64,000 nucleotides of DNA, from contig NZ_JBEGIK010000001.1 of NCBI RefSeq assembly GCF_040675855.1, positions 3,286,001 through 3,350,000 on the forward strand. Direction: 5' to 3'. Below, piece after piece: positions 425-63,376 of this stretch (positions within the stretch are counted from its first letter, which is position 1; every line of letters starts with the position of its first letter). The translations under genes were made by a program, and so were the position numbers. This DNA is from Microbacterium sp. LWH3-1.2. GTDB taxonomy: Bacteria; Actinomycetota; Actinomycetes; Actinomycetales; Microbacteriaceae. The notes below the pieces were generated by a model. That model had not been told where the DNA came from. It worked only from the letters and a program-made list of their open reading frames with translations, and made no database searches.

Positions 425-1987
425 TCAGTAGCCGCTGAAGGCGTCGGTGGTGATCGAGCGGGCCTTCTCGAGCGCGGGCGCGAGCTCGGCGATCAGACCG
501 GCCGGGCCGGAGATGTACGCGTGGCGGGCGGCGATGTCGGGGACCACCTGCACAAGGCCTTCGGCGTCGAGACGCACGCCCTGCGCCCACGTCCAGTGGG
601 CGGGCAGGTCGGCGGGCCGGTCGCGCGTGAACACCACGACGCGGGCGCCGGATGCCTCGATCTCGTCGCGGTACGCCAACTCGGAGGAGTCCGACGCGAC
701 GTAGACCAGGACCACGTCACGGTCGAGGCCCTTCGCCCTCGCCTGTCCGAGCTGCGACACGAACGGCGTCACGCCGATGCCGGCGGCGACCATCAGGATC
801 GGCGCGGCGTCGCGCTTGGGGAGCAGGAAGTCTCCCCACACGCCGGTGATCGCGAGCTCGTCGCCGGGTTCGACCAGCGCGAGCGCCTTCTTGTACGAGC
901 TCAGTGCCTTGGGGGTCTTGCCCTCCTTGAAGGCGACCTTCACAAACGGCAGCTCGGCCGGCGCCGACGCGATGCTGAACTCGCGGCGGGTGCCGCGCGC
1001 GTCGGGATGGCGGTGCGGCACCTCGAGCTCGAGGTACTGGCCGGGCAGGAACGTGAGCCGGTCGTGGACGCGGAACGTGAGCTCCTGCACGGTCGGGGTC
1101 GGCTCGGACCGAGCGACGAGCGTGAGCCTCACCGCGGTGCGGAGCGCGAAGGCGAAGGCGACGAGATTGCCGACGAGGAGCGCGCGCTCCTGACCGAGGG
1201 TGATGTCGCCGATCGCGATCGGCCATCCCGCGAGCACGCCCACGACGCCGGCGACCACGAACTGCTGCCAGCGGCGGGGCGGGAGGGTCAGCGGCTCGGA
1301 GAGCATGAACGCGCCGAGGAAGAGGAACGGCGACGACCACAGCACGGGCCAGAGGAGGTCGAGCGCGTCGATCTCGAGGCCTGCCTCCTGGTACTGGACC
1401 GAGGTGCGGATGACCGCGACCGCCACGGCGACGACCAGGAAGACCGCGATCACCCTCACCTTCTCGGTGCGTACGAGCACCGCGAGCCCCAGCAGGATCA
1501 CCGGCGCGGCGAGGGCAGGCGTGCCCACCCACCACGCCGACGCCCCGAGGTCTGGCCAGGCGAGGCTCAGCAGAGTGAGGACGGTCGCACCGACCGCCGC
1601 GGGGTTGAAGATGTGGCGTCCGCGCCAGGCGAGCACGTACTTCGACAGGGAGGCGACAGCCGCCGCGATCGCGATGCCGAGGAGTCCCACCACCTCGTAC
1701 GTGGGCCGCAGCACGAACAGCAGGATGTGCGCGGTGATCAGCGACGATTCGAGGCGCCAGGGAAGGTTCAGCACACGTTGGGCGGCGGCATCCGCCCCCA
1801 CGCACACGGCCGAGAGCACGACGAGCGTCGCGATCAGCTGCAGCGGGTCAGGCCCGACGAGATCGAAGAACGACAGCAGCAGCGCCACGATGGCGAGCGC
1901 CGCGAGTGCGAGGTAGACGAGGCGGTACATCGACACACGGCCGAGCACCGCGAAGGCGCGGTTCCAGAGAGCAGCGAGGGTGGTCAT
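425..1987 (-). CDS. Membrane NqrB/RnfD-like domain fused to FAD/NAD(P) oxidoreductase
   Basis: A 520-residue fusion. Residues about 20-290 are strongly hydrophobic with several membrane segments and carry the RnfD/NqrB-like signature RGRHIFNPA near residue 125. Residues about 295-520 are a ferredoxin-NADP reductase module with the FAD motif REFS (335-338) and the nucleotide motif AGIGVTP (402-408), ending in an aromatic Tyr. It probably passes electrons from cytosolic NAD(P)H to a membrane or extracytosolic flavin. It is the last gene of FMN-lipoprotein/apbE/MOSC/this gene, starting 4 nt after the MOSC stop. The ATG at 1987 is preferred to an upstream in-frame start inside the MOSC gene. No SGA(S/T) flavinylation motif is obvious in the membrane half. 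Confidence 0.85.
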   Translation of the reverse strand: MTTLAALWNRAFAVLGRVSMYRLVYLALAALAIVALLLSFFDLVGPDPLQLIATLVVLSAVCVGADAAAQRVLNLPWRLESSLITAHILLFVLRPTYEVVGLLGIAIAAAVASLSKYVLAWRGRHIFNPAAVGATVLTLLSLAWPDLGASAWWVGTPALAAPVILLGLAVLVRTEKVRVIAVFLVVAVAVAVIRTSVQYQEAGLEIDALDLLWPVLWSSPFLFLGAFMLSEPLTLPPRRWQQFVVAGVVGVLAGWPIAIGDITLGQERALLVGNLVAFAFALRTAVRLTLVARSEPTPTVQELTFRVHDRLTFLPGQYLELEVPHRHPDARGTRREFSIASAPAELPFVKVAFKEGKTPKALSSYKKALALVEPGDELAITGVWGDFLLPKRDAAPILMVAAGIGVTPFVSQLGQARAKGLDRDVVLVYVASDSSELAYRDEIEASGARVVVFTRDRPADLPAHWTWAQGVRLDAEGLVQVVPDIAARHAYISGPAGLIAELAPALEKARSITTDAFSGY

Positions 1988-1991
1988 GAGG

Positions 1992-2546
1992 TCACACCGG
2001 CTGGAGAGGCTGGTGGGGGCCTTCCGCCAGGAGGACACGGATGCTGTCGCCGGGGCGCACGACGCCGCCCGCGAGCACGACCGACATGACCCCTGCCAGG
2101 CGCACCGTGGCGCCCGTTTCGTCGACGTGGACCACTTCTTTCATGAGCCCTTCAGAGAGTTCGTTGATCTGCGCGCACGGGTTCCGCAGCCCGGTGATCT
2201 CGATCACCGCGTCCTCACCGAGTTCCAGCCGTGTGCCGCGCGGGAGACCGAGCAGGTCGATGCCGGCCGTCGTGATGTTCTCGCCGAGAGCACCGGGCGT
2301 CACCTGGTGCCCGCGCTCGGCCATGTGGTCGAACAGCTCGGCGAGGATGAGGTGCACCTGCCGGAGGTTCGGGGCGGTCGGGTCCCGCTTGATGCGCGAG
2401 AGGTGCTGCACGGTGGCGCCGGCGTGCGCGTCTGCCTCGACGCCGATCCCGGCGATCAGGGTGATGCTCTCGCGCGCCGGCTTGCTGAAGCGATGCGCGT
2501 CGTCGCGGGACACGGCGACGACGTGTCCGGGGAGGGGCTCGGTCAC
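1992..2546 (-). CDS. MOSC domain protein
   Basis: A 184-residue single-domain MOSC (molybdenum cofactor sulfurase C-terminal) protein. It has the family motif GALGENIT in the middle and the conserved cysteine in RNPCAQI, which in this family handles sulfur or molybdopterin-bound metal. The GTG start overlaps the apbE stop by 4 nt (GTGA), so the two are translationally coupled. A MOSC gene inside a flavin electron-transfer operon suggests either a partner molybdoenzyme elsewhere or transport of electrons to an N-oxide or molybdenum-linked substrate. That link is inference; no molybdoenzyme is in the window. Confidence 0.85.
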   Translation of the reverse strand: MTEPLPGHVVAVSRDDAHRFSKPARESITLIAGIGVEADAHAGATVQHLSRIKRDPTAPNLRQVHLILAELFDHMAERGHQVTPGALGENITTAGIDLLGLPRGTRLELGEDAVIEITGLRNPCAQINELSEGLMKEVVHVDETGATVRLAGVMSVVLAGGVVRPGDSIRVLLAEGPHQPLQPV

Positions 2547-3442
2547 CGTCCTACGCTATCCGTTCGAACGAAGAGGTCGGCGCGGCAGCCGGGCGACCAC
2601 TCGACGCGGCCGTCGGTGGTCATGCGCACCCACTCCACAGCCCAGTCGTGGGCGACGCGCGGCCCGCCATCGAAGAACAGCGCCGTCGCGACCGCGTCGG
2701 CCGTCATCACGTCGGACGCCACGGCCCACGTCGCCGCGATCGTGCGCACGGGCTCCCCGGTGCGCGCGTCGAGCACGTGATGCAGCGCGGTGCCCGTCGC
2801 CGACGGCCACGCGCGCCGGTTGATCGCAGACGCGCAGAGCGCAGCATCCGTCACCTCCCAGACGCCGATCGCGCGGCGCGGATCGAACGGATGCTCCAGC
2901 CCGATGCGCTGCGGACGACCTCGCACGGCGAGGTCGCCGCCGGCATCGACGGTGAGGTCCCCGGACTCCGCGCGCGACAGGATCTCGAGCACGCGGTCGA
3001 CCAGGCGGCCCTTGCCGAGCGCGCCGACGTCGATCGTGGCCGGTTCGGTGAGCGCGAGGCGGCCGCCCCGCCAGGTGAGCCTCCCGCGCCAGTCGACGGG
3101 CGCGGCCACCGGGCCGGCGTCGTGGAGCGAGTAGTCCCCGTCGTAGCCGCGCGCGCCGAGCGAAGCACCGACGAGAGGGTTGACCGCACCGTCGGTCGCC
3201 TCCGACACCGCGGCGAGGGCGTCGAGCATGGGTGCGGCGTCCGAAGGCGCCGGAATCGACCCGCCCGCGCGGGCCAGCGCGCTCACGTCGGAGTCCGGCC
3301 GGAACCGCGACCACGTGTGGTCGAACGCGTCGACGAGCGCGGTCACCTCCTTGCGCACCGCTGCGGGAAGCGGGCGCTCGGTGACGATCTCCCACGTCGT
3401 GCCGATGGCGTCGAAGCGCCAGGACGCCGGCACGGAGCCCAC
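2543..3442 (-). CDS. apbE: ApbE, FAD:protein FMN transferase
   Basis: ApbE attaches FMN from FAD covalently to Ser/Thr of target proteins, using Mg2+. The 299-residue sequence has the family motifs in order: DVGALGKG, VDAGGDLAVRG, the HHVLDARTGEPV motif (H-x-x-D-x-x-T-G-x-P), and SDVMTADAVATAL, whose TAD Asp is the usual metal ligand. There is no signal peptide or lipobox, so the enzyme appears cytosolic or relies on partners. It starts with GTG 2 nt after the FMN-binding lipoprotein stop and overlaps the MOSC gene, which makes that lipoprotein the obvious substrate. Confidence 0.93.
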   Translation of the reverse strand: MGSVPASWRFDAIGTTWEIVTERPLPAAVRKEVTALVDAFDHTWSRFRPDSDVSALARAGGSIPAPSDAAPMLDALAAVSEATDGAVNPLVGASLGARGYDGDYSLHDAGPVAAPVDWRGRLTWRGGRLALTEPATIDVGALGKGRLVDRVLEILSRAESGDLTVDAGGDLAVRGRPQRIGLEHPFDPRRAIGVWEVTDAALCASAINRRAWPSATGTALHHVLDARTGEPVRTIAATWAVASDVMTADAVATALFFDGGPRVAHDWAVEWVRMTTDGRVEWSPGCRADLFVRTDSVGR

Positions 3443-3444
3443 GG

Positions 3445-3924
3445 CTAGCTCGCCGCTTCGGACTTGATCGTCTCGATGGCCTTGTTGAAGCCGCCGCTGG
3501 TGAGGGACGATCCGGCGACGCGGCTGACCTGGATGTCGTCGATGTCCTCCCCGACGACCACGTCGGCGATGCCGCCGATGAACTGGCTCTGGTACTGCTC
3601 GGACTCACGCTTCTGCGGGTCGCCCGTCGCCACGACGGCGGTGATGACGTCGTTCTCGAGCGTCACCGTGACGCTGATGGTCTCGACCGACTCGGGCGTC
3701 GCGTAGGAGCCCTCGGCCGTGTAAGTTCCGTCGGCATACGAGCCGGAGCCGGCGGAGCCCGTGCCGGTCGAGCCGGAGCCGGTCGACGATCCGGTGTCGC
3801 CCGTGGTCGGCTCCTCGGCCTCGGAGGCGCTCGCGGCACAGCCCGAGAGGAGAGCGATGCCGGCGACGGCGGTCAGGGCCGCTCCGGCGCGGACGGGGCG
3901 GGAAGCGAGTGCGGTGCGGATCAT
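3445..3924 (-). CDS. FMN-binding domain lipoprotein (likely ApbE substrate)
   Basis: A 159-residue exported lipoprotein with an N-terminal signal and lipobox LLSGC (Cys29), then a Ser/Thr/Gly-rich linker (about 35-62) and an FMN_bind domain. Near the C-terminus, AGSSLTS (137-143) aligns with the usual SGA(T/S)xTS flavinylation motif, predicting FMN on Ser140. It would act outside the membrane as the electron acceptor or relay for the NqrB-like reductase three genes downstream. It is the first gene of the coupled block and starts 76 bp after the P-type ATPase stop. Confidence 0.9.
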   Translation of the reverse strand: MIRTALASRPVRAGAALTAVAGIALLSGCAASASEAEEPTTGDTGSSTGSGSTGTGSAGSGSYADGTYTAEGSYATPESVETISVTVTLENDVITAVVATGDPQKRESEQYQSQFIGGIADVVVGEDIDDIQVSRVAGSSLTSGGFNKAIETIKSEAAS

Positions 3925-4000: not shown

Positions 4001-6760
4001 CTATGAGCCGCCTTTGAGCGAAGCAACGGCGTGTGATGAGCGCCGTCGGGCACGCAGCACTGCCTTCAACACCTCCACGGCCAGGAAGATCCCGATCGAC
4101 ACGACGATGGGGAGGATCCAGGATGCCGCGGACACCGGTCGCGACTCGAACAGGACGTTCATGAACGGCACGTAGGTGTAGATCAGCTGCAGCACCACGA
4201 GCGCGATCGCCGACCACCACACCACGCGATTGCCCCGCAGCACGTCGATCGTCAGGCTCGAGCGGGTCAGGAACCGGCAATTGAAGAGGAACGCGAGCTG
4301 CCCGAACGCGAGCATGAGCACCGCCTCGGTGCGCGCCACCTCGATGTCGGCCCCGGTCGCCACGACGCCATAGAAGACCCCCATCGCCGCGCCGCCGATC
4401 AGCAGCGACACGACGAGGATGAAACCGAGCTCGCCGCGGTTGATGATCGGCCCACCGGTCGCCCGCGGCGGACGACGCATGATGCCGCGCTCTGCCGGCT
4501 CGTACGCGAGGGCGAGCGAGAGCGTGACCGCGGTGACCATGTTCACCCACAGGACCTGCACGCTCGTGAGCGGCAGCGCGAGCCCGAACACGACCGCGAC
4601 CAGGATGACGAGCGATTGCGCGCCGTTCGTGGGCAGCAGGAAGACGATCGACTTGCGCAGGTTGTCGTAGATGCGGCGGCCCTCGGCGATGGCGCTGCGG
4701 ATCGTGGCGAAGTTGTCGTCGGCGAGCACGAACTCCGCCGCCTCCTTCGTCGCCTCGGTGCCCTTGATGCCCATCGCGATTCCGACGTCCGCGCGGGTGA
4801 GCGCCGGGGCGTCGTTGACGCCGTCGCCGGTCATCGCCACGACCTCGCCGTGCGACTGCAGCGCACGAACGATGCGGATCTTGTGCTCGGGGCTGGTGCG
4901 CGCGTAGACGTCGACGTCGCGCACCACCTCGCGCAGCTGCTCCTGGGTGAGCGCCTCGAGCTCGGCTCCGGTGAGCACCTCGGCGTCGGCGCCCGCGAGA
5001 CCCATCTCGTGCGCGATCGCAAGGGCGGTGCCGGCGTGGTCGCCGGTGATCATCTTCACGCGGATGCCGGCGGCGTGGCAGTCGGCGATCGCCTCGACGG
5101 CCTCGGGCCGGGGCGGATCGACGATCCCCCACAGGCCGATGAACTCGAGGTCCACCAGGTCGTCGAGCCCGAACTCCTCGGTCGTCGGCCGCACCGGCTT
5201 GCGCGCTGCTGCCAGGACACGCAGGCCCTGGCCGCTCAGCGCGGCGACGGCGTCGTCCCAGCGCGCGAGGTCGAGCGGTTCGGACCCGTCGGCGCCGCGC
5301 TGCGTCAGCGAACGCTCGAGCAGGCGGTCCGGCGCGCCCTTGACCAGGATCGCCCGTGATACCTCGCCGGCCTCGCCGCCCGAGCGGGCGCCCTCGTTGA
5401 GCGTCGCCATGAGCTTGTTGGCGGAGTCGAACGGGATGACCGCGACCCGGCGCCCACCCGCACTTCCGACTCCGCCCTTGATCGCGACCGCCTTGAGCGC
5501 TCCCTCGGTCGGCTCGCCGACGAGGCTCCACATGCCGTCGTCGCCCCGCACGATGTGCGCGTCGTTGCACAGGGTCGCGATCGCGAGGATGGCGGCCAGA
5601 TCGCCCCGGCCTGCGGCATCCGTTTCCTCGGCGCCTGCCGGCACGATCTCGCCCTCGGGTTCGTACCCGATGCCGGTGACCTCGTACTCCGCGAGCGGGG
5701 TGACGATGTGGCGCACCGTCATCTCGTTGCGGGTGAGCGTTCCCGTCTTGTCGGAGCAGACCGTGGTGACCGAGCCCAGCGCCTCGACCGCGGGGAGCTT
5801 GCGCGTGATCGCGTTGTGGCGCGCCATCTGCTGCACGCCGATCGCGAGCGTGATCGTCACGAGCGCGGGAAGGCCTTCGGGGATCGCCGCGACGGCGAAC
5901 CCGATCGCCGCAGAGATCAGCTCGTCGAACGGCATCCCGTGGAGGAACCGGCCGATCATGAGCATGACGGCCGCCATGCCGAGGATCACGACGGTGAGCA
6001 CCCGGCCGAAGCCGTCGAGCTGACGGGTGAGAGGCGTGGCCAGCGCATCGGCTTCGTCGGCGAGGCTCTGGATGCGGCCCAGCTCGGTCGTCGGCCCGGT
6101 CGCGGTGACCACACCGCGCCCTTGCCCGGCGCTCACGATCGTGCCGGAGAACGCCATCGAGCCCCGGTCGCCCACGCCCGCCTCGGCGGCGACCGCGTCG
6201 GTGGTCTTGGATGAGGGCACCGACTCTCCGGTGAGCGCGGCTTCGTCGATCCGCAGCTGATGCGCCTGCAGCAGTCGCAGGTCCGCCGGCACCTTGTCGC
6301 CGGGCATCAGCCTCACCACATCGCCGGGCACGAGATCTTCGGCTGCGACGGTGGCCCAGCCGCCGTCGCGCCGCGCGCTGGCGTCGGCCGACAGCATCCC
6401 GCGGATCCCCGCGAGCGCCTTCTCAGCGCGCCCCTCCTGGATGTAGCCGATGACGGCGTTGATGATCGCGACGACCATGATGACCCAGAAATCGAGCCAA
6501 TCGCCCATGAGCGCCTTGATGACGGCGGCGCCCAGCAGGATGTAGATCAGGGTGTCGTTGAAGTGAGCCAGGAAACGCAGCCAGCCCGGCTTGCGCGCCG
6601 GTTCGGGCAGCCGGTTGGGCCCCGCGATCTCGAGCCGTTGCGCGGCGCCAGAGGTGCTGAGGCCTCCGGCGTCCGCCTCGAGATGCGTGAGCACGTCGCC
6701 TGCGGGGATCGCCCACGGACGTGCGACGGTGAGGCGGGCTTCCGTCAGCGGCTGCGACAT
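4001..6760 (-). CDS. P-type cation-transporting ATPase (P2-like)
   Basis: At 919 residues it has the full P2 layout: a cation-ATPase N domain, TGES in the actuator domain, the phosphorylation loop CSDKTGTLT, TGDGVNDAPA in the P domain, and about ten membrane segments. The M4 motif is AAIPEGLPA, as in Ca2+ and H+/Na+ pumps. In M6, WVNMVTAVTL has Ala where calcium pumps have a liganding Asp, so the transported ion cannot be assigned from sequence. It follows prs after 54 bp and precedes the FMN lipoprotein after 76 bp on the same strand. Confidence 0.92.
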   Translation of the reverse strand: MSQPLTEARLTVARPWAIPAGDVLTHLEADAGGLSTSGAAQRLEIAGPNRLPEPARKPGWLRFLAHFNDTLIYILLGAAVIKALMGDWLDFWVIMVVAIINAVIGYIQEGRAEKALAGIRGMLSADASARRDGGWATVAAEDLVPGDVVRLMPGDKVPADLRLLQAHQLRIDEAALTGESVPSSKTTDAVAAEAGVGDRGSMAFSGTIVSAGQGRGVVTATGPTTELGRIQSLADEADALATPLTRQLDGFGRVLTVVILGMAAVMLMIGRFLHGMPFDELISAAIGFAVAAIPEGLPALVTITLAIGVQQMARHNAITRKLPAVEALGSVTTVCSDKTGTLTRNEMTVRHIVTPLAEYEVTGIGYEPEGEIVPAGAEETDAAGRGDLAAILAIATLCNDAHIVRGDDGMWSLVGEPTEGALKAVAIKGGVGSAGGRRVAVIPFDSANKLMATLNEGARSGGEAGEVSRAILVKGAPDRLLERSLTQRGADGSEPLDLARWDDAVAALSGQGLRVLAAARKPVRPTTEEFGLDDLVDLEFIGLWGIVDPPRPEAVEAIADCHAAGIRVKMITGDHAGTALAIAHEMGLAGADAEVLTGAELEALTQEQLREVVRDVDVYARTSPEHKIRIVRALQSHGEVVAMTGDGVNDAPALTRADVGIAMGIKGTEATKEAAEFVLADDNFATIRSAIAEGRRIYDNLRKSIVFLLPTNGAQSLVILVAVVFGLALPLTSVQVLWVNMVTAVTLSLALAYEPAERGIMRRPPRATGGPIINRGELGFILVVSLLIGGAAMGVFYGVVATGADIEVARTEAVLMLAFGQLAFLFNCRFLTRSSLTIDVLRGNRVVWWSAIALVVLQLIYTYVPFMNVLFESRPVSAASWILPIVVSIGIFLAVEVLKAVLRARRRSSHAVASLKGGS

Positions 6761-11916: not shown

Positions 11917-12693
11917 TCAGACCGGGCTGGAATCGTCTGGTGCAGGACTCTGCGCCGGTAGGCCGTACATCGCGTTCTGCTGGTTGACGAGTTCGTCATG
12001 CGCCCTGATGTCATCTCCGTGCAGAGCGTCGAACTGCTCGAACATCCATGTGTAATACGCCTCCCGAAGTCCGGCGTACTCCGTGACCGCGTCAGCAATC
12101 ACGATGTCTTCTTGGTCACCGATGTACTGCTTTGCGGTCGCGCTGAACCTTCCGGAAGCAAGCAACGGTTCCGACTTCATCTTGGCCACGAACTTCGTCT
12201 CGTTGTTCTGGAACGACATCTCGAACGACAGCGGGGGCGTCGTGACATGGGTGATGTAGTTGCGAAGGTCTTTCAGGAACTGGGTGACCGGGGCGTAACC
12301 CAGCGACTGCCGACGCTTCTCCTCCTCCTGCGCGAAGGGCGTGCTTCGATAGTTCGCCATCAGGCCCCGCACGTTGTCCACGAGGGTGGTGTTCATGGCG
12401 GTGTAGTTGGCAAGGAACAAGAACAAGAACATCCAGAACGTCTGCATGGCCTCCCGTTGCTCTCGCTCCATGCCCATGTAGCTAAACGCCCTCGCCTCAC
12501 CTTCTGGGCCGGTGAAGTCGATGTGCCTCAACAGGAAGTGCTCGTTCCACTTGAGCGCCGCATGTACCAGTCGCACCGAGTCCCAGCGGTTGTGGGCGAT
12601 GCGCCCAGGGTGATTCCGAATACTCGTTCGCAGTGCTTCCGCACGAGCGGCGAAGTCTTCGTCGGACTCTTCGGGCTGGATACTCTCAGGCAC
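11917..12693 (-). CDS. Orphan helical protein with HEPN-like RNYITH motif
   Basis: 258 residues, not recognised as a named family. It looks all-helical, with a strongly hydrophobic segment at about 86-105 (FWMFLFLFLANY) that may be a membrane or buried helix. DLRNYITHV (142-150) fits the Rx4H pattern (R144, H149) of HEPN ribonucleases, which are common in toxin-antitoxin and abortive-infection systems. The first 40 residues and the C-terminus are acidic. Codon use is less GC-biased than in neighbours, it stands alone, and a hairpin-rich non-coding stretch lies upstream. A defence or toxin role is inference. Confidence 0.7.
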   Translation of the reverse strand: MPESIQPEESDEDFAARAEALRTSIRNHPGRIAHNRWDSVRLVHAALKWNEHFLLRHIDFTGPEGEARAFSYMGMEREQREAMQTFWMFLFLFLANYTAMNTTLVDNVRGLMANYRSTPFAQEEEKRRQSLGYAPVTQFLKDLRNYITHVTTPPLSFEMSFQNNETKFVAKMKSEPLLASGRFSATAKQYIGDQEDIVIADAVTEYAGLREAYYTWMFEQFDALHGDDIRAHDELVNQQNAMYGLPAQSPAPDDSSPV

Positions 12694-28486: not shown

Positions 28487-29413
28487 TCAGGTCACCACGC
28501 GCGCGCCGGCAACGGGTCCGTGCACGTGGAGCGCCTCGTAGCCCGCGGCCGACAGCGTGATCTGCAGCTCGAGCGCCGACTCGGGGTCGATGGTCAGGAA
28601 CGCCAGCGTAGGACCCGACCCCGACACCATCCCCGCCAGGGCGCCGGACTCCTCACCGAGTTCGAGCACCTCGCGCAGCTCGGGGCGCAGCGAGAGGGCA
28701 GCGACCTGCAGATCGTTGCGCGTGTGCTCGGCGAGCGCGATCGGGTCCGCTGCCCGCAGCGCGTGCAGCACGCCGGGCGCGACCGTCGGCACGCGCGCAC
28801 CCGACACGATGTCGGGCCGCGCGCGCAGCTCGTCGAGGTGCGTGTACACCTCCGGGGTCGACAGGCCCTCGTCCGACGGCACCACGACCCAGTCGAAGCG
28901 GCCCTTCGCGAGCGCCGGGCTCAGCTGATCGCCGCGTCCGGTGCCGACGGCTGTCCCGCCCATCAGCGCGAAGGGCACGTCGGCGCCGAGGCGCGCGGCG
29001 AGCTTGTGCAGCTCCGCGGTTCCCAGCTCGGCCCCCCACAGCGCGTCGCAGGCGACGAGGGCGGCCGCAGCATCCGCTGATCCTCCGCCCATGCCGCCCG
29101 CGACGGGCACGTGCTTCACGATGTCGAGGTGCACGCCCCCCGCGTGGCCGATGCGCTGCGCGACCAGCCGCGCGGCGCGCACGGCGAGGTTGCGGTCATC
29201 GGCGGGAACCCCCGTCACGTCGACGGTGCCCGAGATCGACACCGTGAACTCGTCGGAGGGCGATGCCCACACGTCCTCGTACAGCGACACGGCCTGGTAC
29301 GCCGACGCCACCTCGTGGTAGCCGTCGTCCTGCATGCCGCCGACCTCGAAGAAGAGGTTGAGCTTGCCCGGCGCCCGCACGCGGACGCCGTCGGCGGCCA
29401 GCGCCTGGCTCAC
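28487..29413 (-). CDS. ispE: 4-diphosphocytidyl-2-C-methyl-D-erythritol kinase
   Basis: A 308-residue GHMP kinase of the MEP isoprenoid pathway. It has the [10 protein letters not shown]-terminal motif, the glycine-rich ATP loop [16 protein letters not shown] and the C-terminal MVSGSGPT loop. The GTG at 29413 overlaps the aldo/keto reductase stop (GTGA). In many actinobacteria it directly follows ksgA; here three genes separate them. Confidence 0.95.
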
Positions 29414-30477
29414 CGGTTCGCCGATTCCGCCCAGAGGTCCACGTCGATGCCGTCCGACAGGGCGTCGATGCGCTCCTCCTCCTCCATCGTGAAGGCCGGC
29501 CCCTCGAGCGCCTTGAGGTTCTCGTCGAGCTGCGCCGGGCGCGACGCGCCGATGAGCGCGGACGCCACCACGGGATTGCGCAGCACCCACTGGATCGACA
29601 TCTGAGCGAGGGTCTGCCCGCGCTCCTTCGCGATGACGTCGAGCGACCGCAAGGTCGACAGCCCCTTCTCGCTCAGCGAGCCGTTCGGCAGCGATCCGCG
29701 CTGCTGCGCGCGCTGGGCCGAGCCGTCGCCGAGATACTTGTCGGTGAGCAGCCCCTGCGCCAGCGGCGTGAACGCGATGGCCCCCATGCCCTCCTGCGTG
29801 AGCACGCGCGTGAGGCCGTCCTCCACCCAGCGGTTCAGGATCGAGTAGGCCGGCTGGTGGATCACGAGCGGCGTGCCGAGCGAGCGGGCGACGGATGCTG
29901 CCACCGCCGTGCGCTCGGCGCTGTAGGACGAGATGCCGACGTAGAGGGCCTTGCCCTGCCGCACCAGCGAGTCGAGAGCGCCCACGGTCTCCTCGATCGG
30001 CACGTCGGGGTCGACGCGGTGCGAATAGAAGATGTCGACGTAGTCGACGCTCATGCGCTTCAGCGACTGCTCGGCGCTCGAGATCAGGTACTTGCGCGGG
30101 CCGCCGTTGCCGTAGGGCCCGTGCCACATGTCGTAGCCGGCCTTGGACGAGATGATGATCTCGTCGCGGTACGGGGCGAAGTCCTCGCGCATCATGCGGC
30201 CGAAGTTCGTCTCGGCGCTTCCGTAGGGCGGGCCGTAGTTGTTCGCCAGGTCGAAGTGGGTGATGCCGCGGTCGAACGCGTGGCGCAGCAGGGCCCGCTG
30301 ACTGTCGAACGGGATGTTGTCGCCGAAGTTCCACCAGAGCCCGAGCGAGACGGGCGGCAGCGTGAGCCCGGAGGCACCCACCCGGCGGTAGTCCGCGCCG
30401 TCGTAGCGGTCGGCGGCGGCGGCGTAGGGACGGTGGAGGTCTCCTCCACGGGACAGATAGCGCGCGTCTTCGGTCAC
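29410..30477 (-). CDS. Aldo/keto reductase, YghZ-like
   Basis: 355 residues of the AKR fold with catalytic Asp/Tyr in [16 protein letters not shown], Lys in [10 protein letters not shown], and His in FYSHRVDPD. The sequence around [16 protein letters not shown] is characteristic of the YghZ group, which reduces L-glyceraldehyde 3-phosphate and other aldehydes with NADPH. It overlaps ispE by 4 nt and is divergent from the Stealth gene. Confidence 0.9.
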
Positions 30478-35725: not shown

Positions 35726-37030
35726 ATGCCTTCGCTCGGGGAACTGGTCGCACCACGTCGCCTCGGGACCGACTTTCGCTGGCTGCTCGCGTCGTCGTGG
35801 ACGAGCAATCTCGGCGACGGCATCGCGCTCGCCGCCGCGCCGCTGCTGATCGCCTCGCTCACGTCGTCGCCGGTCCTCGTGGCGGCCGGCGCCATGATGC
35901 AGTTCCTGCCGTGGCTCCTGTTCGGCCTCCTCGCGGGCGCCGTCGCCGACCACCACGACCGGCGGCGCCTGGTGATGCTCGCCAACGGCCTGCGGGCGGT
36001 GATCGTCGCCGTGCTCGTCGCGTTCCTCGTCTCCGGACAGGCCACCGTGTGGCTGGTGCTGGCCGTGGCGTTCCTCTATGGGACGGCCGAGGTCTTCGCC
36101 GATTCGGCCGGCAGCACGCTGCTTCCGATGCTGGTGAGGCCCGCCGACCTCGGCATCGGCAACGCCCGCATGCAGGCGGGCTACCTCGTCGCCAACCAGC
36201 TCGCCGGGCCGCCGCTGGGCGCCTTCCTCTTCGCAGTGGGCTCGTTCTGGCCGTTCGTGCTGCAGGTGCTGTGCGTGGCGCTGGCGGTGCTGCTCATCTC
36301 CCGGATCGCGCGCACGCCGGTGCCCGAACACCCGGATACGGACCGCGGCACGAAGGCGCACGCCATCCGCGAGGGACTGCAGTGGCTGCGCCACAACGCA
36401 CCGGTGCGCACGCTCGTCATCATCATCCTGGTCTTCAACGTCACGTGGGCCGCACCCTGGGGTGTGCTCGTGCTCTACGCCACGGAGCACCTGGGCATGG
36501 GCCCCGTCGGCTATGGTGCCCTCACGACGGCGGCGGCGCTCGGCGGCATCATCGCGATCTTCAGCTTCGGCTGGCTCGAGAAGCACGTGTCGTTCTCGAC
36601 GCTCATGCGGGTGTGCCTTTCGCTCGAAGTGCTCATGCACCTCTCGTTCGCACTCACGACCGCTCCCCCACTGGCCTTCATGATCATGTTCGGCTTCGGC
36701 CTCTACGCGTTCGTATGGGGCACCATCTCGACGACCGTCCGCCAGCGCCTCGTGCCGATGGAACTTCAGGGCCGCATCGCCTCGGTGAACATGGTCGGCG
36801 TCTTCGGGGGTCTCGTGATCGGGCAGTTCATCGGCGGGATCCTCGCCCAGGTGTGGGGACTCACCGCCCCCTGGTGGTTCGCCTTCGGCGGCTCACTCAT
36901 CACGCTGGTGCTGGTGTGGCGCTCGATCTCGCACATCGCGGCCGCGAAGCCGGTGATCGACGCGCGAGAAGCGGAGCAGGTCGCAGACGAGGACGAGCCC
37001 GGCGCGGGTGGGCTCCCCCTGATCGACTGA
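35726..37030 (+). CDS. MFS transporter (MFS_3, efflux-type)
   Basis: 434 residues with about 12 helices, the MFS_3/enterobactin-exporter-like type. Features are the N-terminal RWLLASSWTSNLGDGI, ADHHDRRRLVM in loop 2-3 and a typical N-terminal half ending near GNARMQAGYLVANQLAGPPLG. Members export small molecules or siderophores; the substrate is not predictable. It converges on the NUDIX gene 14 bp away. Confidence 0.9.
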   Translation: MPSLGELVAPRRLGTDFRWLLASSWTSNLGDGIALAAAPLLIASLTSSPVLVAAGAMMQFLPWLLFGLLAGAVADHHDRRRLVMLANGLRAVIVAVLVAFLVSGQATVWLVLAVAFLYGTAEVFADSAGSTLLPMLVRPADLGIGNARMQAGYLVANQLAGPPLGAFLFAVGSFWPFVLQVLCVALAVLLISRIARTPVPEHPDTDRGTKAHAIREGLQWLRHNAPVRTLVIIILVFNVTWAAPWGVLVLYATEHLGMGPVGYGALTTAAALGGIIAIFSFGWLEKHVSFSTLMRVCLSLEVLMHLSFALTTAPPLAFMIMFGFGLYAFVWGTISTTVRQRLVPMELQGRIASVNMVGVFGGLVIGQFIGGILAQVWGLTAPWWFAFGGSLITLVLVWRSISHIAAAKPVIDAREAEQVADEDEPGAGGLPLID

Positions 37031-37584: not shown

Positions 37585-38496
37585 TCAGTCGTCGAACGCG
37601 CCGTAGACCTCGAGCGTGTTCGCCGCGATCTGCGCACACAGCTCGTCGACGCCGACGCCGAGCTCGGCGGCCATGTATCGCACCGTCACCGGGATCAGGT
37701 ACGGGGCGTTCGGGCGGCCACGGTGCGGGGTGGGTGTGAGGAACGGGGCATCCGTCTCGACGAGGATCCGGTCGCGCGGGATCACCGCGAGCGCGTCGCG
37801 GAGGTTCTGCGCGTTGTTGAATGTCACGTTGCCGGCGAACGAGAGGTAGTACCCCCGCGCGCCCGCGATGCGGGCCATGTCGGCGTCGCCCGAGAAGCAG
37901 TGGAAGACCGTGCGATCGGGCGCTCCGACGCGCTCGAGCGTATCGAGCACCGCGTCGTGCGCGTCGCGGTCGTGGATCTGCATCGCGATGCCGTGCTTCT
38001 TCGCGAGGGCGATGTGCGCCTCGAAGCTCTCGAACTGGGCGGGCCGGCCGTCCTCGTCGGTGCGGAAGAAGTCCAGGCCGGTCTCGCCGATCGCGCGCAC
38101 GCGCGGCTGCGCGGCGAGCTCGTCGATCACCGCGATCGCCTCGGGAAGCCGCCCGGCCGCCTGGTACGCGGGCGCCTCGTTCGGGTGGATGGCCACCGCC
38201 GCGAGGACGCGGGGATGGGAGGCCGCCGCCCACGCCGACCAGCGGCTCGAGTCGATGTCGCCACCGGCCTGCACGACGCCGATCACACCGACCTCGCCGG
38301 CACGCTCGAGCTGCTCGTCGAGCGACAGGCCGGCGCCGTCCTCGATCTCGAGATGAGCGTGGTTGTCGTACACGGGCACCGCGAGCGGCTCGGGCGCCGC
38401 CGGGTACGTGACGTCGCGCGAGCCTTTCTCGCGGGAGCGGACGTACTGCGACGGGTCGGAGCCCGCGGCGGGGTACGGCACCGGGGGTGTCGCCAT
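37585..38496 (-). CDS. tatD: TatD-family metal-dependent DNase
   Basis: 303 residues with the TatD metal ligands: HAHLE, GETGLDFF, QIHDRDA, HCFSG and ETDAPFL. The start ATG shares one base with the metG stop (TGATG). TatD proteins are 3'-5' exonucleases or hydrolases in DNA repair and quality control. Conserved neighbour of metG and ksgA. Confidence 0.94.
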   Translation of the reverse strand: MATPPVPYPAAGSDPSQYVRSREKGSRDVTYPAAPEPLAVPVYDNHAHLEIEDGAGLSLDEQLERAGEVGVIGVVQAGGDIDSSRWSAWAAASHPRVLAAVAIHPNEAPAYQAAGRLPEAIAVIDELAAQPRVRAIGETGLDFFRTDEDGRPAQFESFEAHIALAKKHGIAMQIHDRDAHDAVLDTLERVGAPDRTVFHCFSGDADMARIAGARGYYLSFAGNVTFNNAQNLRDALAVIPRDRILVETDAPFLTPTPHRGRPNAPYLIPVTVRYMAAELGVGVDELCAQIAANTLEVYGAFDD

Positions 38497-40076
38497 CAGA
38501 CCGACTGCTCGACGCGCGGGAACAGCGGTGCGAGGCCGTTCACCGAGGTCCCCGGGCGAAGCACGCCCCAGTCGCCCGCCTCGCGGATCGGCTGATCCTG
38601 CAGGCGCCCGATCGACTGCGCCGCGCCGAGCGCGATCCAGAGCTTCTCGGTCGAGACAGGCATCACCGGCGACAGGAGCACCGCCAGGGCGCGCAAGCCC
38701 TCGGCGGCGGTGTAGAGCACCGTTCCCAGGCGCTCGCGCTGCGCGTCGACCTTGGCGAGCGCCCACGGCTCGTTCTCGGTGATGTACAGGTTCAGCGCGT
38801 CGACGATCGTCCAGATGGCGTGGATCGCCTCGTCGATGCGGAACCGCTCGATCGCGGCGTCGGCGTGGGCCGCAGCATCCGCCACCGTCTTCTGGATGCG
38901 CAGGTCGGCCTCGGTGTAGGAGCCCGCCGCGGGCACGATCCCCTCGAAGTACCGCTCGATCATCGCGGTCGTGCGCGACGCGAGATTGCCGAAGCCGTTC
39001 GCGAGCTCGGCCTGGTAGCGGGCCGAGAGATCTTCCCACGAGAACGAGCCGTCCTGGCCGAACGCGATCGCCGACAGGAAGTAGAAGCGGTAGGCGTCCG
39101 AGCCGAACACGTCGGTGATCTCGGTGGGCGCGATGCCGGTGAGCTTCGACTTCGACATCTTCTCGCCGCCGACGAGCAGCCAGCCGTGCGCGAAGACGCC
39201 GCGCGGCACCTCGAGTCCTGCGGCCATCAGCATCGCGGGCCAGATGACGGCGTGGAAGCGCAGAATGTCCTTGCCGACGATGTGGTAAGCCGGCCAGCGG
39301 CGGGCGAACTCGACGGGGTCCTCGCCGTAGCCGATCGCGGTCGCGTAGTTGAGGAGGGCGTCGACCCATACGTAGATGACGTGCGACTCGTCCCACGGGA
39401 GCGGGATGCCCCAGTCGAACGCCGAACGCGAGATCGAAAGGTCTTTCAGGCCGTTCTTGACGAACGACACGACCTCGTTGCGGGCCGACTCGGGGCGCAC
39501 GAAGTCGGGGACGCTCGAGTAGAGCTCGAGGAGCTTGTCCTGGAACTCGCTCAGCTTGAAGAAGTAGTTCTTCTCCTGCAGCAGCTCGAGCGGCTTCGAG
39601 TGGATCGCGCAGACCTTCAGGCCCTCGAACGCGCCCGTGCCGTCGACGATCTCGGCTTCGGGCTTGAACTCCTCGCAGCCCACGCAGTAGAGCGCCTCGT
39701 ACTCGCCGGCGTAGATGTACCCGCGGTCGTAGATCGCCTGGACGAACTGCTGCACCCGCTCCTCGTGGCGGTGCTGCGTCGTGCGGATGAAGTCGTCGTT
39801 GGCGACGTCCAGTGTCTCCAGCAGCGGGAACCATGCCTCGGTGACGAGCTTGTCGACCCACTCCTGCGGCGTGACGCCGTTCGCCGACGCCGCGCGCATC
39901 ATCTTCTGGCCGTGCTCGTCGGTACCCGTCAGCATCCAGGTGTCGTCGCCCGCCTGGCGGTGCCAGCGCGCGAGGGTGTCGACCGCCACGGTGGTGTAGC
40001 CGTGGCCGATGTGGGGCACGTCGCTCGGATAGTAGATCGGCGTCGTGATGTAGAAGGACGAGGGGCCGGAAGTCAC
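38496..40076 (-). CDS. metG: Methionyl-tRNA synthetase
   Basis: 526 residues, class I. It has the ATP motif PHIGHG (HIGH) near residue 21, a knuckle with CVGCEEF, the KMSKS loop EKMSKSK near 305 and an anticodon-binding helical domain with WTIVDALNLYI. It lacks the C-terminal tRNA-binding extension, as usual in actinobacteria. GTG start. Followed directly by tatD (1-nt overlap). Confidence 0.96.
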   Translation of the reverse strand: MTSGPSSFYITTPIYYPSDVPHIGHGYTTVAVDTLARWHRQAGDDTWMLTGTDEHGQKMMRAASANGVTPQEWVDKLVTEAWFPLLETLDVANDDFIRTTQHRHEERVQQFVQAIYDRGYIYAGEYEALYCVGCEEFKPEAEIVDGTGAFEGLKVCAIHSKPLELLQEKNYFFKLSEFQDKLLELYSSVPDFVRPESARNEVVSFVKNGLKDLSISRSAFDWGIPLPWDESHVIYVWVDALLNYATAIGYGEDPVEFARRWPAYHIVGKDILRFHAVIWPAMLMAAGLEVPRGVFAHGWLLVGGEKMSKSKLTGIAPTEITDVFGSDAYRFYFLSAIAFGQDGSFSWEDLSARYQAELANGFGNLASRTTAMIERYFEGIVPAAGSYTEADLRIQKTVADAAAHADAAIERFRIDEAIHAIWTIVDALNLYITENEPWALAKVDAQRERLGTVLYTAAEGLRALAVLLSPVMPVSTEKLWIALGAAQSIGRLQDQPIREAGDWGVLRPGTSVNGLAPLFPRVEQSV

Positions 40077-40213: not shown

Positions 40214-41032
40214 CTACCCACGGACGGAGAGTGCGGCCTGGTAGAGCTCGCGGCTCGAGTGCCCGGTGAGGCCGGATACTTCGGCCGCCGCCTCCTTCAG
40301 ACGCGTACCGCCGCGCACCAGCTCGAGCACCTGGGTCACCGCGTCCGGGAACGCGACGCCGCGGGCGGGCGCGCCATCCACGACGATGACGAGCTCGCCA
40401 CGGACGCCGGCCTCGGCCCACGCGGCGAGCTCGGCCAGCGCGCCACGCGCCACCTCCTCGTGGAGCTTCGTCAGCTCACGGCACACCGCACCGCGACGGT
40501 CGGCGCCGAACGCGGCCGCCATATCGGCGAGCGTCGCCGCGACGCGCGACGGCGCCTCGAAGAAGACCATGGTGCGCGGCTCCGTGCTGAGCGCTCGGAA
40601 GGCCGCGGCTCGCTCCCCCGCCTTGCGCGGAACGAAGCCCTCGAACGTGAAGCGGTCGGTCGGCAGCCCCGACACCGCGAGCGCCGTCACGACCGCGCTC
40701 GGGCCGGGGATCGCCGTCACCTCGACCCCCGCCGCCGCGGCCGCCGCGACGAGGCCGTAGCCCGGGTCGCTCACGGTGGGCATGCCGGCATCGCTCAGCA
40801 CGAGCACGTCCTGCTCGCGGGCGAGCTCCACGAGCTCGGGCGCCCGCTCCTTCTCGTTGTGGTCGTGGAGCGCGATGAGACGAGGCCGGTTCGCGATGCC
40901 GAGAGCGGCCAAGAGGCGCTGGGTCGTGCGAGTGTCTTCGGCGGCGACGATCGTCGCTTCGCCGAGGGCCTCGACGAGACGCTTCGAGGCATCTCCCAGG
41001 TTGCCGATGGGCGTCGCCGCGAGGATGATCAC
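40214..41032 (-). CDS. rsmI: 16S rRNA 2'-O-ribose C1402 methyltransferase RsmI
   Basis: 272 residues of the tetrapyrrole-methylase fold with ATPIGNLGD at the N-terminus, AAEDTRTTQRLL and LVLSDAGMPTVSDPG, the RsmI signatures. GTG start. It is divergent from the protein mannosyltransferase with only 23 bp between start codons, so at least one transcript must be leaderless or start inside the other gene. This divergent pair is also found in Mycobacterium (Rv1002c/Rv1003). Confidence 0.95.
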   Translation of the reverse strand: MIILAATPIGNLGDASKRLVEALGEATIVAAEDTRTTQRLLAALGIANRPRLIALHDHNEKERAPELVELAREQDVLVLSDAGMPTVSDPGYGLVAAAAAAGVEVTAIPGPSAVVTALAVSGLPTDRFTFEGFVPRKAGERAAAFRALSTEPRTMVFFEAPSRVAATLADMAAAFGADRRGAVCRELTKLHEEVARGALAELAAWAEAGVRGELVIVVDGAPARGVAFPDAVTQVLELVRGGTRLKEAAAEVSGLTGHSSRELYQAALSVRG

Positions 41033-41055: not shown

Positions 41056-42639
41056 GTGACGGATGCCCCGCGACTCGAGGCCGATCAGCCCGCCGCGCCG
41101 CTCCTGCCTCCGGCACGACCGAGTCTGTACGACCGCTTCGCCCGCCGGCTGAGCCAGGACGCGCGCGCTCGGCGGCTGTACCGGTGGCTCGGCCCTGCGA
41201 TCGTCCTGGTCATCGCCGCGATCCTGCGCCTGTGGAACCTCGCCGCGGCACACGACCTGATGAACCAGTTCGACGAGACGTACTACGTCAAGGACGCCTG
41301 GACGATGCTCAACCTCGGGTACGAGGCATCCTGGCCCGCCGACGCCAACGAGAGCTTCCTCTCAGGGGACGTGAACGTGTTCACCACGAACCCTGCCTTC
41401 GTCGTGCATCCCCCGCTCGGGAAGTGGATCATCGCCCTGGGCATGATGGTGCTCGGCCCCGAGTCGGGGTGGGGCTGGCGCATCACGACCGCACTCCTCG
41501 GCATCGCGTCGGTGCTGCTGCTCATGCTCATCGCGAAGCGCCTGACGAGGTCGACCACCTTCGCGGTCGTCGCAGGGCTCCTGATGGCGGTGGACGGCCT
41601 GGCGATCTCGATGAGCCGCGTCGCGCTGCTCGACACCTCGCTGACCTTCTTCGTCCTGCTCGCCTTCCTGTTCGTGCTGCGCGATCGCGAGCGCACGATG
41701 ACCCGCATCGCCGAGACCGTCGCCGCCCGCTACGACGGCGACGCGCCGCCCTCCTGGGGACCCGTCCTGTGGAACCGGCCGTGGCTCATCGCGGCCGGCG
41801 CGGCGCTGGGCGCGGCGACCGCGGTGAAATGGTCGGGCGCCTGGGTGCTGGCGGGCCTGGGCGTCTACTTCGTGGTGACCGACGCGCTCGCCCGCCGGCG
41901 CGCGGGGGTGGTGCTCTGGCCGACGGATGCCGTGCGCCAGGGTCTCGTCACGTTCGTGCTGTTCGTCCCCGTCGCGGTGCTGGTGTACCTGGCGTCGTGG
42001 ACCGGCTGGCTCGTCACCGACGGGGGGTACGACCGTCACGCCGGAAGCAATCCGCTCGAGAGCCTCTGGCTCTATCACGTCGCGATGTACGCATCGACGG
42101 CGGGCATCATCTCCGGCCACGCCTACGCGAGCTCGGCGTGGCAATGGCCGCTGCTGTGGCGCCCCACCGGCGTCTACTTTCACCGGGATGCGCTGGGCGT
42201 GAACGGCTGCACGGCCCCGAGCGGATGCGTCGACGTGATCTCGACGATGCCGAACCCGCTCATCTGGTACGCCGGCGTCGCCGCAGTGCTCTACCTCGCG
42301 TACCGCTTCGTCGTCGTCCGCGACTGGCGCTACGCGCTCGTTCTCACCGGGGTCGCGGTCACCTACGTGCCGTGGCTGTTCCTGCCCCAGCGCACGATCT
42401 TCCAGTTCTACACGGTGCTGATCCTGCCCTTCATGCTCCTGGCGCTGACGTTCGCGCTCAAGGACATCGCGGGCTCGCCGACGGCCGACACCTACCGCCG
42501 GCTGACCGGGCAGCGTCTGGTGCTCGTGTTCCTCGGTGTGGCGCTCGCGCTGTCCGTCTTCTGGTACCCGGTGATCTCGGCGATCAACGTGCCCTACGAC
42601 TTCTGGCACCTGCACATGTGGCTGAACAGCTGGGTGTGA
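41056..42639 (+). CDS. pmt: Dolichyl/polyprenyl-phosphate-mannose protein mannosyltransferase (PMT)
   Basis: 527 residues, GT39 family, about 11 membrane segments. The first loop holds the catalytic DE pair in NQFDETYYVKDAW, and HPPLGKW follows. It transfers mannose from polyprenyl-phosphate-mannose to Ser/Thr of Sec-exported proteins, such as the lipoproteins in this window with Ser/Thr-rich linkers. GTG start with no clear ribosome site, consistent with a leaderless mRNA. It converges on the DUF255 gene with 7 bp between. Confidence 0.93.
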   Translation: MTDAPRLEADQPAAPLLPPARPSLYDRFARRLSQDARARRLYRWLGPAIVLVIAAILRLWNLAAAHDLMNQFDETYYVKDAWTMLNLGYEASWPADANESFLSGDVNVFTTNPAFVVHPPLGKWIIALGMMVLGPESGWGWRITTALLGIASVLLLMLIAKRLTRSTTFAVVAGLLMAVDGLAISMSRVALLDTSLTFFVLLAFLFVLRDRERTMTRIAETVAARYDGDAPPSWGPVLWNRPWLIAAGAALGAATAVKWSGAWVLAGLGVYFVVTDALARRRAGVVLWPTDAVRQGLVTFVLFVPVAVLVYLASWTGWLVTDGGYDRHAGSNPLESLWLYHVAMYASTAGIISGHAYASSAWQWPLLWRPTGVYFHRDALGVNGCTAPSGCVDVISTMPNPLIWYAGVAAVLYLAYRFVVVRDWRYALVLTGVAVTYVPWLFLPQRTIFQFYTVLILPFMLLALTFALKDIAGSPTADTYRRLTGQRLVLVFLGVALALSVFWYPVISAINVPYDFWHLHMWLNSWV

Positions 42640-62051: not shown

Positions 62052-62759
62052 TCATCGCCGCGGCGCGCGCAGTGCGATCGTCTCCTCGACCCACGCCGGC
62101 ACGAGCTCGCTCGCGAGGCCGGCCCGCGTCTCGTCGAAGGGCACCGCCGGGTCGCTGGGCTCGAGGTTGAGCTCCACCGTGCGCGCCCCGAAGGCCGACG
62201 CGAGCGCGACGTACCCGGCCGCCGGGTACACCTGGCCTGACGTGCCGATCGAGACGAACACGTCGCACGCGACGACCGCCTGCTCGATGCGGTCGAGCCC
62301 GTACGGCATCTCACCGAACCAGACCACGTCGGGGCGCAGCATCCGTTCTCCGCATTCGGGGCACGCGGGGCGGTCGATGAGGTCGGCGACCCAATCGGGC
62401 CGGGATCCGCAGGCGAGGCAGAGCGCGCGTCGCAGCTCGCCGTGCATGTGCACGAGGTTGCGGCTGCCGGCGCGCTCGTGCAGGTCGTCGACATTCTGCG
62501 TGACCACGAGCAGGTCGTCGCCGATCGCGCCTTCGAGACGGGCGAGCGCGCGATGCGCGGCATTCGGGACGACGGATGCCGCCGCCCGGCGTCGTGCGTC
62601 ATAGAACGCCTGGACGAGGTCGGGGTCGCGTTCGAATCCCTCCGGCGTCGCCACGTCGTCCACGTCGTGGCCCTCCCAGAGACCGTCGGCGCCGCGGAAC
62701 GTGGGCACGCCGCTCTCTGCCGAGATGCCGGCCCCCGTGAGCACGACGATGCGATTCAT
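62052..62759 (-). CDS. cobB: NAD-dependent sirtuin deacylase
   Basis: 235 residues with GAGISAESGVPTFR (NAD binding), TQNVDDLHERAG, the catalytic His in VHMHGEL and a four-Cys zinc site CLAC...CPEC. FYDARRR supplies a Tyr-x-x-Arg, the pair that gives class III sirtuins (SIRT5, CobB) activity on succinyl and malonyl lysine. ATG overlaps the upstream hydrolase-like gene (ATGA). Confidence 0.93.
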   Translation of the reverse strand: MNRIVVLTGAGISAESGVPTFRGADGLWEGHDVDDVATPEGFERDPDLVQAFYDARRRAAASVVPNAAHRALARLEGAIGDDLLVVTQNVDDLHERAGSRNLVHMHGELRRALCLACGSRPDWVADLIDRPACPECGERMLRPDVVWFGEMPYGLDRIEQAVVACDVFVSIGTSGQVYPAAGYVALASAFGARTVELNLEPSDPAVPFDETRAGLASELVPAWVEETIALRAPRR

Positions 62760-63376
62760 CGCACGGTGTCAGGCGCGACGTGCGACAGCACGCGTTCCCA
62801 GACGTCCGCGAGGATGAGCCTCGCCCCCGGGCCCCCCGTCTTCGGCACCATCTCGACCCGGGCAGACACCAGATGATCCTTGAACCAGCGCGCCGCAGCG
62901 GATGCGGCCGTCGGGTCGGCCTGGCCGTTCATCAGGAGCGTCTTCGCGGAGATGCGGCTCAGGAGCTCGGCGACCTCGCTCGCGCCGAGTTCGGAATCCG
63001 GTCGGGGAACGGCGACGAGTGCAAGTCGGTCGACGCCCTCGCCGAGATGCGCCGCGATCATGATCGCGAGCTCTCCGGCCTCGCCGACTCCCACCAGGCC
63101 GACCGGACGCCCGTGCGCCTCGTCCGCGATGAAGCGCGCGATGACGTTCGCGGTCGCCTCTGCCGGGGTGGCGCCGCGGTACGCCGCAGGGTCGTCGATG
63201 TCGTCGACGGTGAGCCCCACGGCGACGATCCTGGCGTCGCGGTGCGCGGTGACATCGGGCCGAGGATCAGACAGGGTCGAGACACCCGAGCGGAGCAGGA
63301 ACACCGTACGCTCCGCACCGGGCGCCCCGAAGCTGCGGTTCTCGTACGAGGCGTCGGGTGCGGGTCCCTTGGTCAT
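62756..63376 (-). CDS. Degenerate alpha/beta hydrolase-like protein
   Basis: 206 residues with an alpha/beta-hydrolase-like pattern, but the nucleophile elbow reads GVGEAGE: Glu replaces the usual Ser. The C-terminal half has the TLLMNGQADP strand typical of the fold. It may have lost hydrolase activity or act as a binding or scaffold protein. It is coupled to the sirtuin (ATGA). ATG at 63376. Confidence 0.72.
   Translation of the reverse strand: MTKGPAPDASYENRSFGAPGAERTVFLLRSGVSTLSDPRPDVTAHRDARIVAVGLTVDDIDDPAAYRGATPAEATANVIARFIADEAHGRPVGLVGVGEAGELAIMIAAHLGEGVDRLALVAVPRPDSELGASEVAELLSRISAKTLLMNGQADPTAASAAARWFKDHLVSARVEMVPKTGGPGARLILADVWERVLSHVAPDTVR

Follow-up and report, generated by a model that had tools for sequence, protein, structure and literature searches.

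A probable passenger MOSC gene behind a putative internal leaderless promoter in an NQR/RNF-like flavin operon of Microbacterium

A flavin operon hosting a MOSC gene

The DNA analysed, hereafter the window, is a stretch of 64,000 nucleotides (nt) from the genome of Microbacterium sp. LWH3-1.2 (contig NZ_JBEGIK010000001.1, positions 3,286,001 to 3,350,000). Named relatives with identities of up to 94% agree with the assignment to this genus. Four open reading frames (ORFs) found on its minus strand at 425-3924 encode, in this order, a lipoprotein, the flavin transferase ApbE, a MOSC-domain protein and a NqrB/RnfD-like membrane domain fused to an FNR module (NqrB-FNR). We consider it rather probable that the locus is a known NQR/RNF-like core which has taken up MOSC as a passenger, located behind an internal leaderless promoter and serving as a translational relay towards the NqrB-FNR gene. 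The lipoprotein and apbE genes are 2 nt apart, apbE and MOSC overlap by 4 nt (GTGA, 2543-2546), and MOSC is separated from NqrB-FNR by 4 nt. Gene order, strand and spacings given in an earlier note on this DNA are thus borne out by the ORF coordinates. For the NqrB-FNR gene, a longer GTG frame reaching 2038 is also in the ORF list. The features discussed are the following.

425..1987, minus strand: NqrB/RnfD-like membrane domain fused to FNR/NAD-binding module, 520 amino acids (aa); ATG at 1987
1992..2546, minus strand: MOSC-domain protein, 184 aa (PF03473, 6.9e-15); its GTG start codon is within the 4-nt overlap with apbE
2543..3442, minus strand: ApbE, FAD:protein FMN transferase, 299 aa (PF02424, 8.8e-42); solved ApbE structures matched
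2553..2558, minus strand: TAGCGT, a TANNNT -10-like box within the last apbE codons; spacer to the MOSC start codon 6 nt
3445..3924, minus strand: FMN_bind-like lipoprotein, 159 aa; AGGAGG in front of the gene
3496..3513, minus strand: putative flavin-attachment motif GSSLTS, lipoprotein residues 138-143; Ser140 at the acceptor position

Distribution, gain and loss of MOSC

Gene-order counts were confined to the Microbacteriaceae. In a family sample of 199 genomes the NqrB-FNR query matched in 88 (79 with both halves and nine with the FNR part only, as counted by eye), and orthologous MOSCs were found in 53; in the 25 genomes of other genera holding both, coordinates compared by eye place MOSC next to NqrB-FNR in none. 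Within a genus sample of 247 genomes, NqrB-FNR is encoded by 232 and MOSC by 35, and the two genes are adjacent in 24. By the criterion of the earlier note, its link of MOSC to the flavin chain would fall if most orthologous clusters lacked the gene; of the 232 genomes with NqrB-FNR, 208 do not have MOSC next to it. Across 366 Microbacterium genomes, MOSC (E<=1e-30) was detected in 48, beside NqrB-FNR in 31 and elsewhere in 17, never in both positions. A role of MOSC as outside partner was considered and dismissed on account of this distribution. Sixteen standalone MOSC loci were taken up, five of them from other genera and the rest from 11 out of the 17 Microbacterium genomes with such a copy. 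In the 13 where the gene could be located, neighbours were compared by eye and on N-terminal sequence, and neither a common neighbour nor a molybdenum cofactor cluster is constant among them. A Microbacterium-type operon with MOSC also occurs in a record titled Planococcus sp. APC 4015 (L022), probably a mislabelled assembly.

Loci were then compared in structure. The 161 collected are a set picked for similarity rather than a random sample; 138 of them are distinct, and 132 of these are from Microbacterium. MOSC is located between ApbE and NqrB-FNR in 28 of the 132, and clear MOSC scars were recognized in five. ApbE is lacking in two loci, one of which (L123, genome G412) still has MOSC: lipoprotein and ApbE genes are gone, and the order is ATPase, MOSC, NqrB-FNR. 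In the MOSC tree, rooted at midpoint, the 29 operonic copies form one clade (support 0.858) apart from the 16 standalone ones. On the operon tree the last common ancestor of the MOSC loci (support 0.965) spans 58 tips, 29 with MOSC, and a single gain would be followed by 14 losses, several inner branches of the tree being weak. MOSC has been repeatedly deleted while the operon stays, and appears dispensable for keeping the flavin unit. It would be a passenger specific to one lineage. In the simplest case it would have been captured a single time, at a site between apbE and the NqrB-FNR gene that would directly follow an internal leaderless promoter (a TANNNT box and, 6-7 nt further on, a start codon).

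A putative internal promoter ahead of MOSC

A TANNNT box, mostly TAGCGT or TAGCCT, precedes the MOSC start in all 28 intact loci. The spacer is 6 nt in 26 of them, and 7 nt before an ATG in L126 and L028, the start codon of the latter having been re-read to give this spacing. The box is kept in all five MOSC scars, before the remnant frame, and in 22 further MOSC-free loci, and is found in one of the 51 loci featuring a 4- or 1-nt ApbE/NqrB overlap. Its position relative to apbE varies among the 55 box-bearing loci: 34 have it within the gene, invariably in one frame, 15 have it straddling the stop codon, and 6 have it downstream. Because the box also crosses or follows the apbE stop, apbE coding alone fails to explain it. 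When TANNNT was searched before the candidate starts of 255 ORFs, derived from this window and 16 loci of genus and family, 39 matches were found at spacer 6 and 18 at spacer 7, and 0-4 at each of the others. Leaderless genes of Actinobacteria are described, in the parts of two papers considered here, as having a TANNNT -10 box about 12 nt before the start codon (PMC3160421, PMC3898074). The box ahead of MOSC is likely an internal leaderless promoter, and the 4-nt ApbE/MOSC overlap is probably also a leaderless start.

In the window, TANNNT is found 6-7 nt before candidate starts of other ORFs, among which 11917-12693, 29410-30477, 35726-37030, 38496-40076, 40214-41032, 41056-42639 and 62756-63376, all candidate leaderless genes. 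AAGAGT-like hexamers, defined post hoc by a loose pattern, are located 6-7 nt before the NqrB-FNR start in 23 of the 25 gapped loci that lack the TANNNT box (L043, L056, L061, L072 and relatives). These hexamers look homologous to the TAGCGT element; other genes show no enrichment of [AC]AG[AG]GT upstream, and a promoter role is not claimed for them.

Frames ending at the NqrB-FNR start

In all 28 intact loci MOSC stops close to the NqrB-FNR start, at a distance of -1 to 5 nt. A 5-nt Shine-Dalgarno-like core before NqrB-FNR was found in none of the 28 MOSC loci; the same core is present in 1/50 overlap loci and in 4/27 box loci without MOSC. MOSC and NqrB-FNR have in sequence the traits of a coupled pair, and translation of NqrB-FNR probably depends on the preceding frame, since this stops near the start and a Shine-Dalgarno-like core is missing.

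Junctions free of MOSC show a related arrangement. Among the 21 MOSC-free junctions with a separate frame, the reading frame opened by the box start terminates close to the NqrB-FNR start codon (-12 to +8 nt) in 17; the two alternative frames do so in 3/42. Two of the other four junctions read straight into NqrB-FNR in frame; in the last two the frame overshoots its start, by 13 and 16 nt. The MOSC remnant of L020 is not in frame. Deletions of at least 300 nt, simulated in intact MOSCs, gave a fraction of 0.40 (0.31-0.67 by locus). Counted by lineage, grouped by eye, the figure is 14/17 (p ~4e-4), and for the five clear scars alone 5/5 (p 0.01).

Ribosomes starting on MOSC, or on the leftover micro-ORF, would terminate at the NqrB-FNR start and feed its translation. 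We tentatively propose, as a possibility somewhat short of probable, that an enzyme gene within the operon has repeatedly decayed to a cis-regulatory relay, in which internal leaderless promoter and start codon are selected and the downstream frame is free. The frame would be a full MOSC, a micro-ORF of 7-70 codons, or nothing, and would deliver ribosomes to NqrB-FNR. If this holds, the membrane reductase would be expressible apart from lipoprotein and ApbE, and the loci would provide a replicated natural series of operons that lose a gene but keep the expression of the next one. The locus is also a warning against deriving function from gene neighbourhood, as behind its compact four-gene array with a 4-nt overlap there are probably an internal promoter and a passenger gene.

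Evidence to the contrary and alternative explanations

Several data weigh against this reconstruction, or parts of it. Some re-gain of MOSC is possible, because unrestricted parsimony needs only 10 changes on the operon tree. Another Microbacterium clade, represented by 14 loci with 112 partly homologous ORFs, did not show the TANNNT peak (1 match at spacer 6 and 2 at spacer 7). For 24 of the 28 intact loci the box is part of the apbE coding sequence, and in a single frame, so that coding constraint on apbE may contribute to its conservation. Thirteen box-bearing tips fall outside the MOSC clade on the operon tree. That MOSC brought its own promoter was considered and rejected, the box being found at the chosen, uncertain start in just 3 of the 16 standalone genes; both counts favour the capture of MOSC by a promoter already in place. 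The missing Shine-Dalgarno before NqrB-FNR is general, as it is missing in 49/50 overlap loci too. When in-frame fusions are counted as productive, the contrast between frames falls to 19/21 vs 14/42. The relay was tested post hoc, on loci that share ancestry. Lastly, MOSC seems to work where present, because of purifying selection and of the retained Cys: in 300 pairs from 25 loci the median ratio of nonsynonymous to synonymous substitution rates (dN/dS) is 0.23 for MOSC, 0.30 for ApbE and 0.22 for NqrB-FNR.

The MOSC slot could result from neutral accretion, box and micro-ORF being functionless leftovers that end near the next start by chance. The relatives share ancestry, and frames would often end at the NqrB-FNR start because its GTGA and TGATG forms offer a stop in one more frame; the wider productive count given above is also less striking. 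However, the 17/21 vs 3/42 of the other frames, the 0.40 of simulated deletions, and a box spacing that stays the same in all three positions relative to apbE, all speak against chance, and we regard neutral accretion as rather unlikely.

Less probable still, MOSC may be a functional partner of the core, a cytosolic molybdenum reductase similar to YiiM, YcbX or mARC, which would receive electrons from the co-transcribed FNR module. The protein matches PF03473 and its Cys124 is invariant in 45/45 aligned MOSCs, as in members of the family; a MOSC_N domain was not found by Pfam in the operonic MOSC. A sequence search of the PDB at E<=0.01 gave YuaD alone (1oru, E 4e-4). Conserved Cys and purifying selection of intact MOSCs fit such an enzyme, and so do the presence of moaC in all 35 MOSC genomes vs 211/247 overall (p 0.004, kinship uncorrected) and the likeness of the FNR half to NADH-cytochrome b5 reductase, one of many FNR folds it resembles. 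About 14 MOSC losses with the operon kept, the 13 compared standalone orthologues without a constant neighbour, and the lack of adjacency to the core in the other genera sampled make it nevertheless improbable. The proposal of the earlier note, a role of MOSC in providing or repairing the molybdenum-sulfur cofactor of a linked terminal acceptor in the flavin chain, fits the gene order of this window and close relatives, but is highly improbable in view of the 208/232 genomes without adjacency, the 0/25 in other genera, the repeated deletion, and the acceptor side, which would be outside, while no export signal was seen in MOSC by eye (no predictor run).

Two further MOSC proteins are encoded by the genome (L001, L003 and G000:C1:1064560). 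One has a MOSC_N domain, and is located ~5.4 kb from a second moaC copy.

The flavin core

The lipoprotein, ApbE and NqrB/RnfD-FNR core is a published NQR/RNF-like flavinylation system. NqrB-FNR is a single protein with membrane domain at about residues 15-285 and FNR/NAD-binding module at about 286-520. NQR2_RnfD_RnfE (PF03116, 1.5e-06) is matched N-terminally, just above the cut-off (28.2 bits, cut-off 27.7), and NAD_binding_1 (PF00175, 7.4e-06) C-terminally; RnfD, NqrB and NqrF are the fold matches. The gene cluster includes apbE. The flavin motif [S/T]GA[S/T] was not found in the membrane domain, which features only VGAT and LGAS.

The lipoprotein is less canonical. Its Cys29 presumably belongs to a lipobox-like motif. 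Pfam FMN_bind (PF04205) gave no match even at E<=5, and Foldseek by itself none at E<=0.001; FMN_bind domains are the best matches of the predicted fold. Residues G138 S139 S140 L141 T142 are invariant in 27/27 aligned lipoproteins, that of the window included, and AGSS is found in place of the ApbE-target consensus [S/T]GA[S/T]. The FMN-binding nature that the earlier note had assigned to the lipoprotein is thus backed by fold, but neither by the Pfam model nor by the flavin site, which is off consensus. The NQR/RNF-like family is widened to lipoproteins that escape both the FMN_bind model and the published site motif.

Electrons would enter from NAD(P)H at the FNR module and cross the membrane through the NqrB/RnfD-like domain. 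ApbE would flavinylate the lipoprotein, which would deliver the electrons to an acceptor outside.

A cation P-type ATPase (PF00122, PF00689) is encoded at 4001-6760 on the minus strand of the window, directly upstream of the lipoprotein gene. Some of the named relatives likewise have the ATPase gene next to the operon; the best 80 of 206 NqrB-FNR relatives in named genomes were considered. A second flavin unit is found in the same genome (L183 636-3474, G000:C1:3895500-3899500), and includes a Ferric_reduct protein, an FMN_bind protein with SGAT and a second ApbE. It resembles the MsrQ-like class, as far as this is described in the parts of PMC8238504 considered.

Comparison with known systems

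No description of a MOSC insertion or slot was found in the literature searched on apbE/MOSC, leaderless coupling and gene loss, and none linking an internal promoter with apbE. The terms 'gene loss' and 'remnant' were not found in the part considered of the review PMC12548453, nor is the word MOSC present in the main texts of PMC8238504 and PMC11334425.

NQR/RNF-like systems are reported, in the portions of these last two papers used here (Meheust 2021, PMC8238504; Huang 2024, PMC11334425), mainly from Actinobacteria and the Candidate Phyla Radiation (CPR). The same portions describe ApbE together with an extracytosolic FMN_bind protein, and a NqrB/RnfD membrane domain fused to a PF00175 module, as found here; in those of PMC11334425 the membrane domain lacks the covalent flavin site. 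The flavin electron-transfer role that the earlier note had read in the core agrees with this class. The operon differs in that its lipoprotein is missed by the Pfam FMN_bind model, GSS replaces GA[S/T], and one lineage features a MOSC gene and a TANNNT box.

YiiM and YuaD, in the part of PMC5818509 considered, share with the MOSC described here the domain and the invariant Cys, but sequence similarity to them is weak. The TANNNT box, at about 12 nt from the start codon, is the same as in the leaderless actinobacterial genes of PMC3160421 and PMC3898074, so far as the parts considered describe it. Unlike in those, the candidate leaderless start lies within an operon, in a 4-nt overlap with the upstream stop, and what follows it is a complete gene in some loci and an eroded micro-ORF in others.

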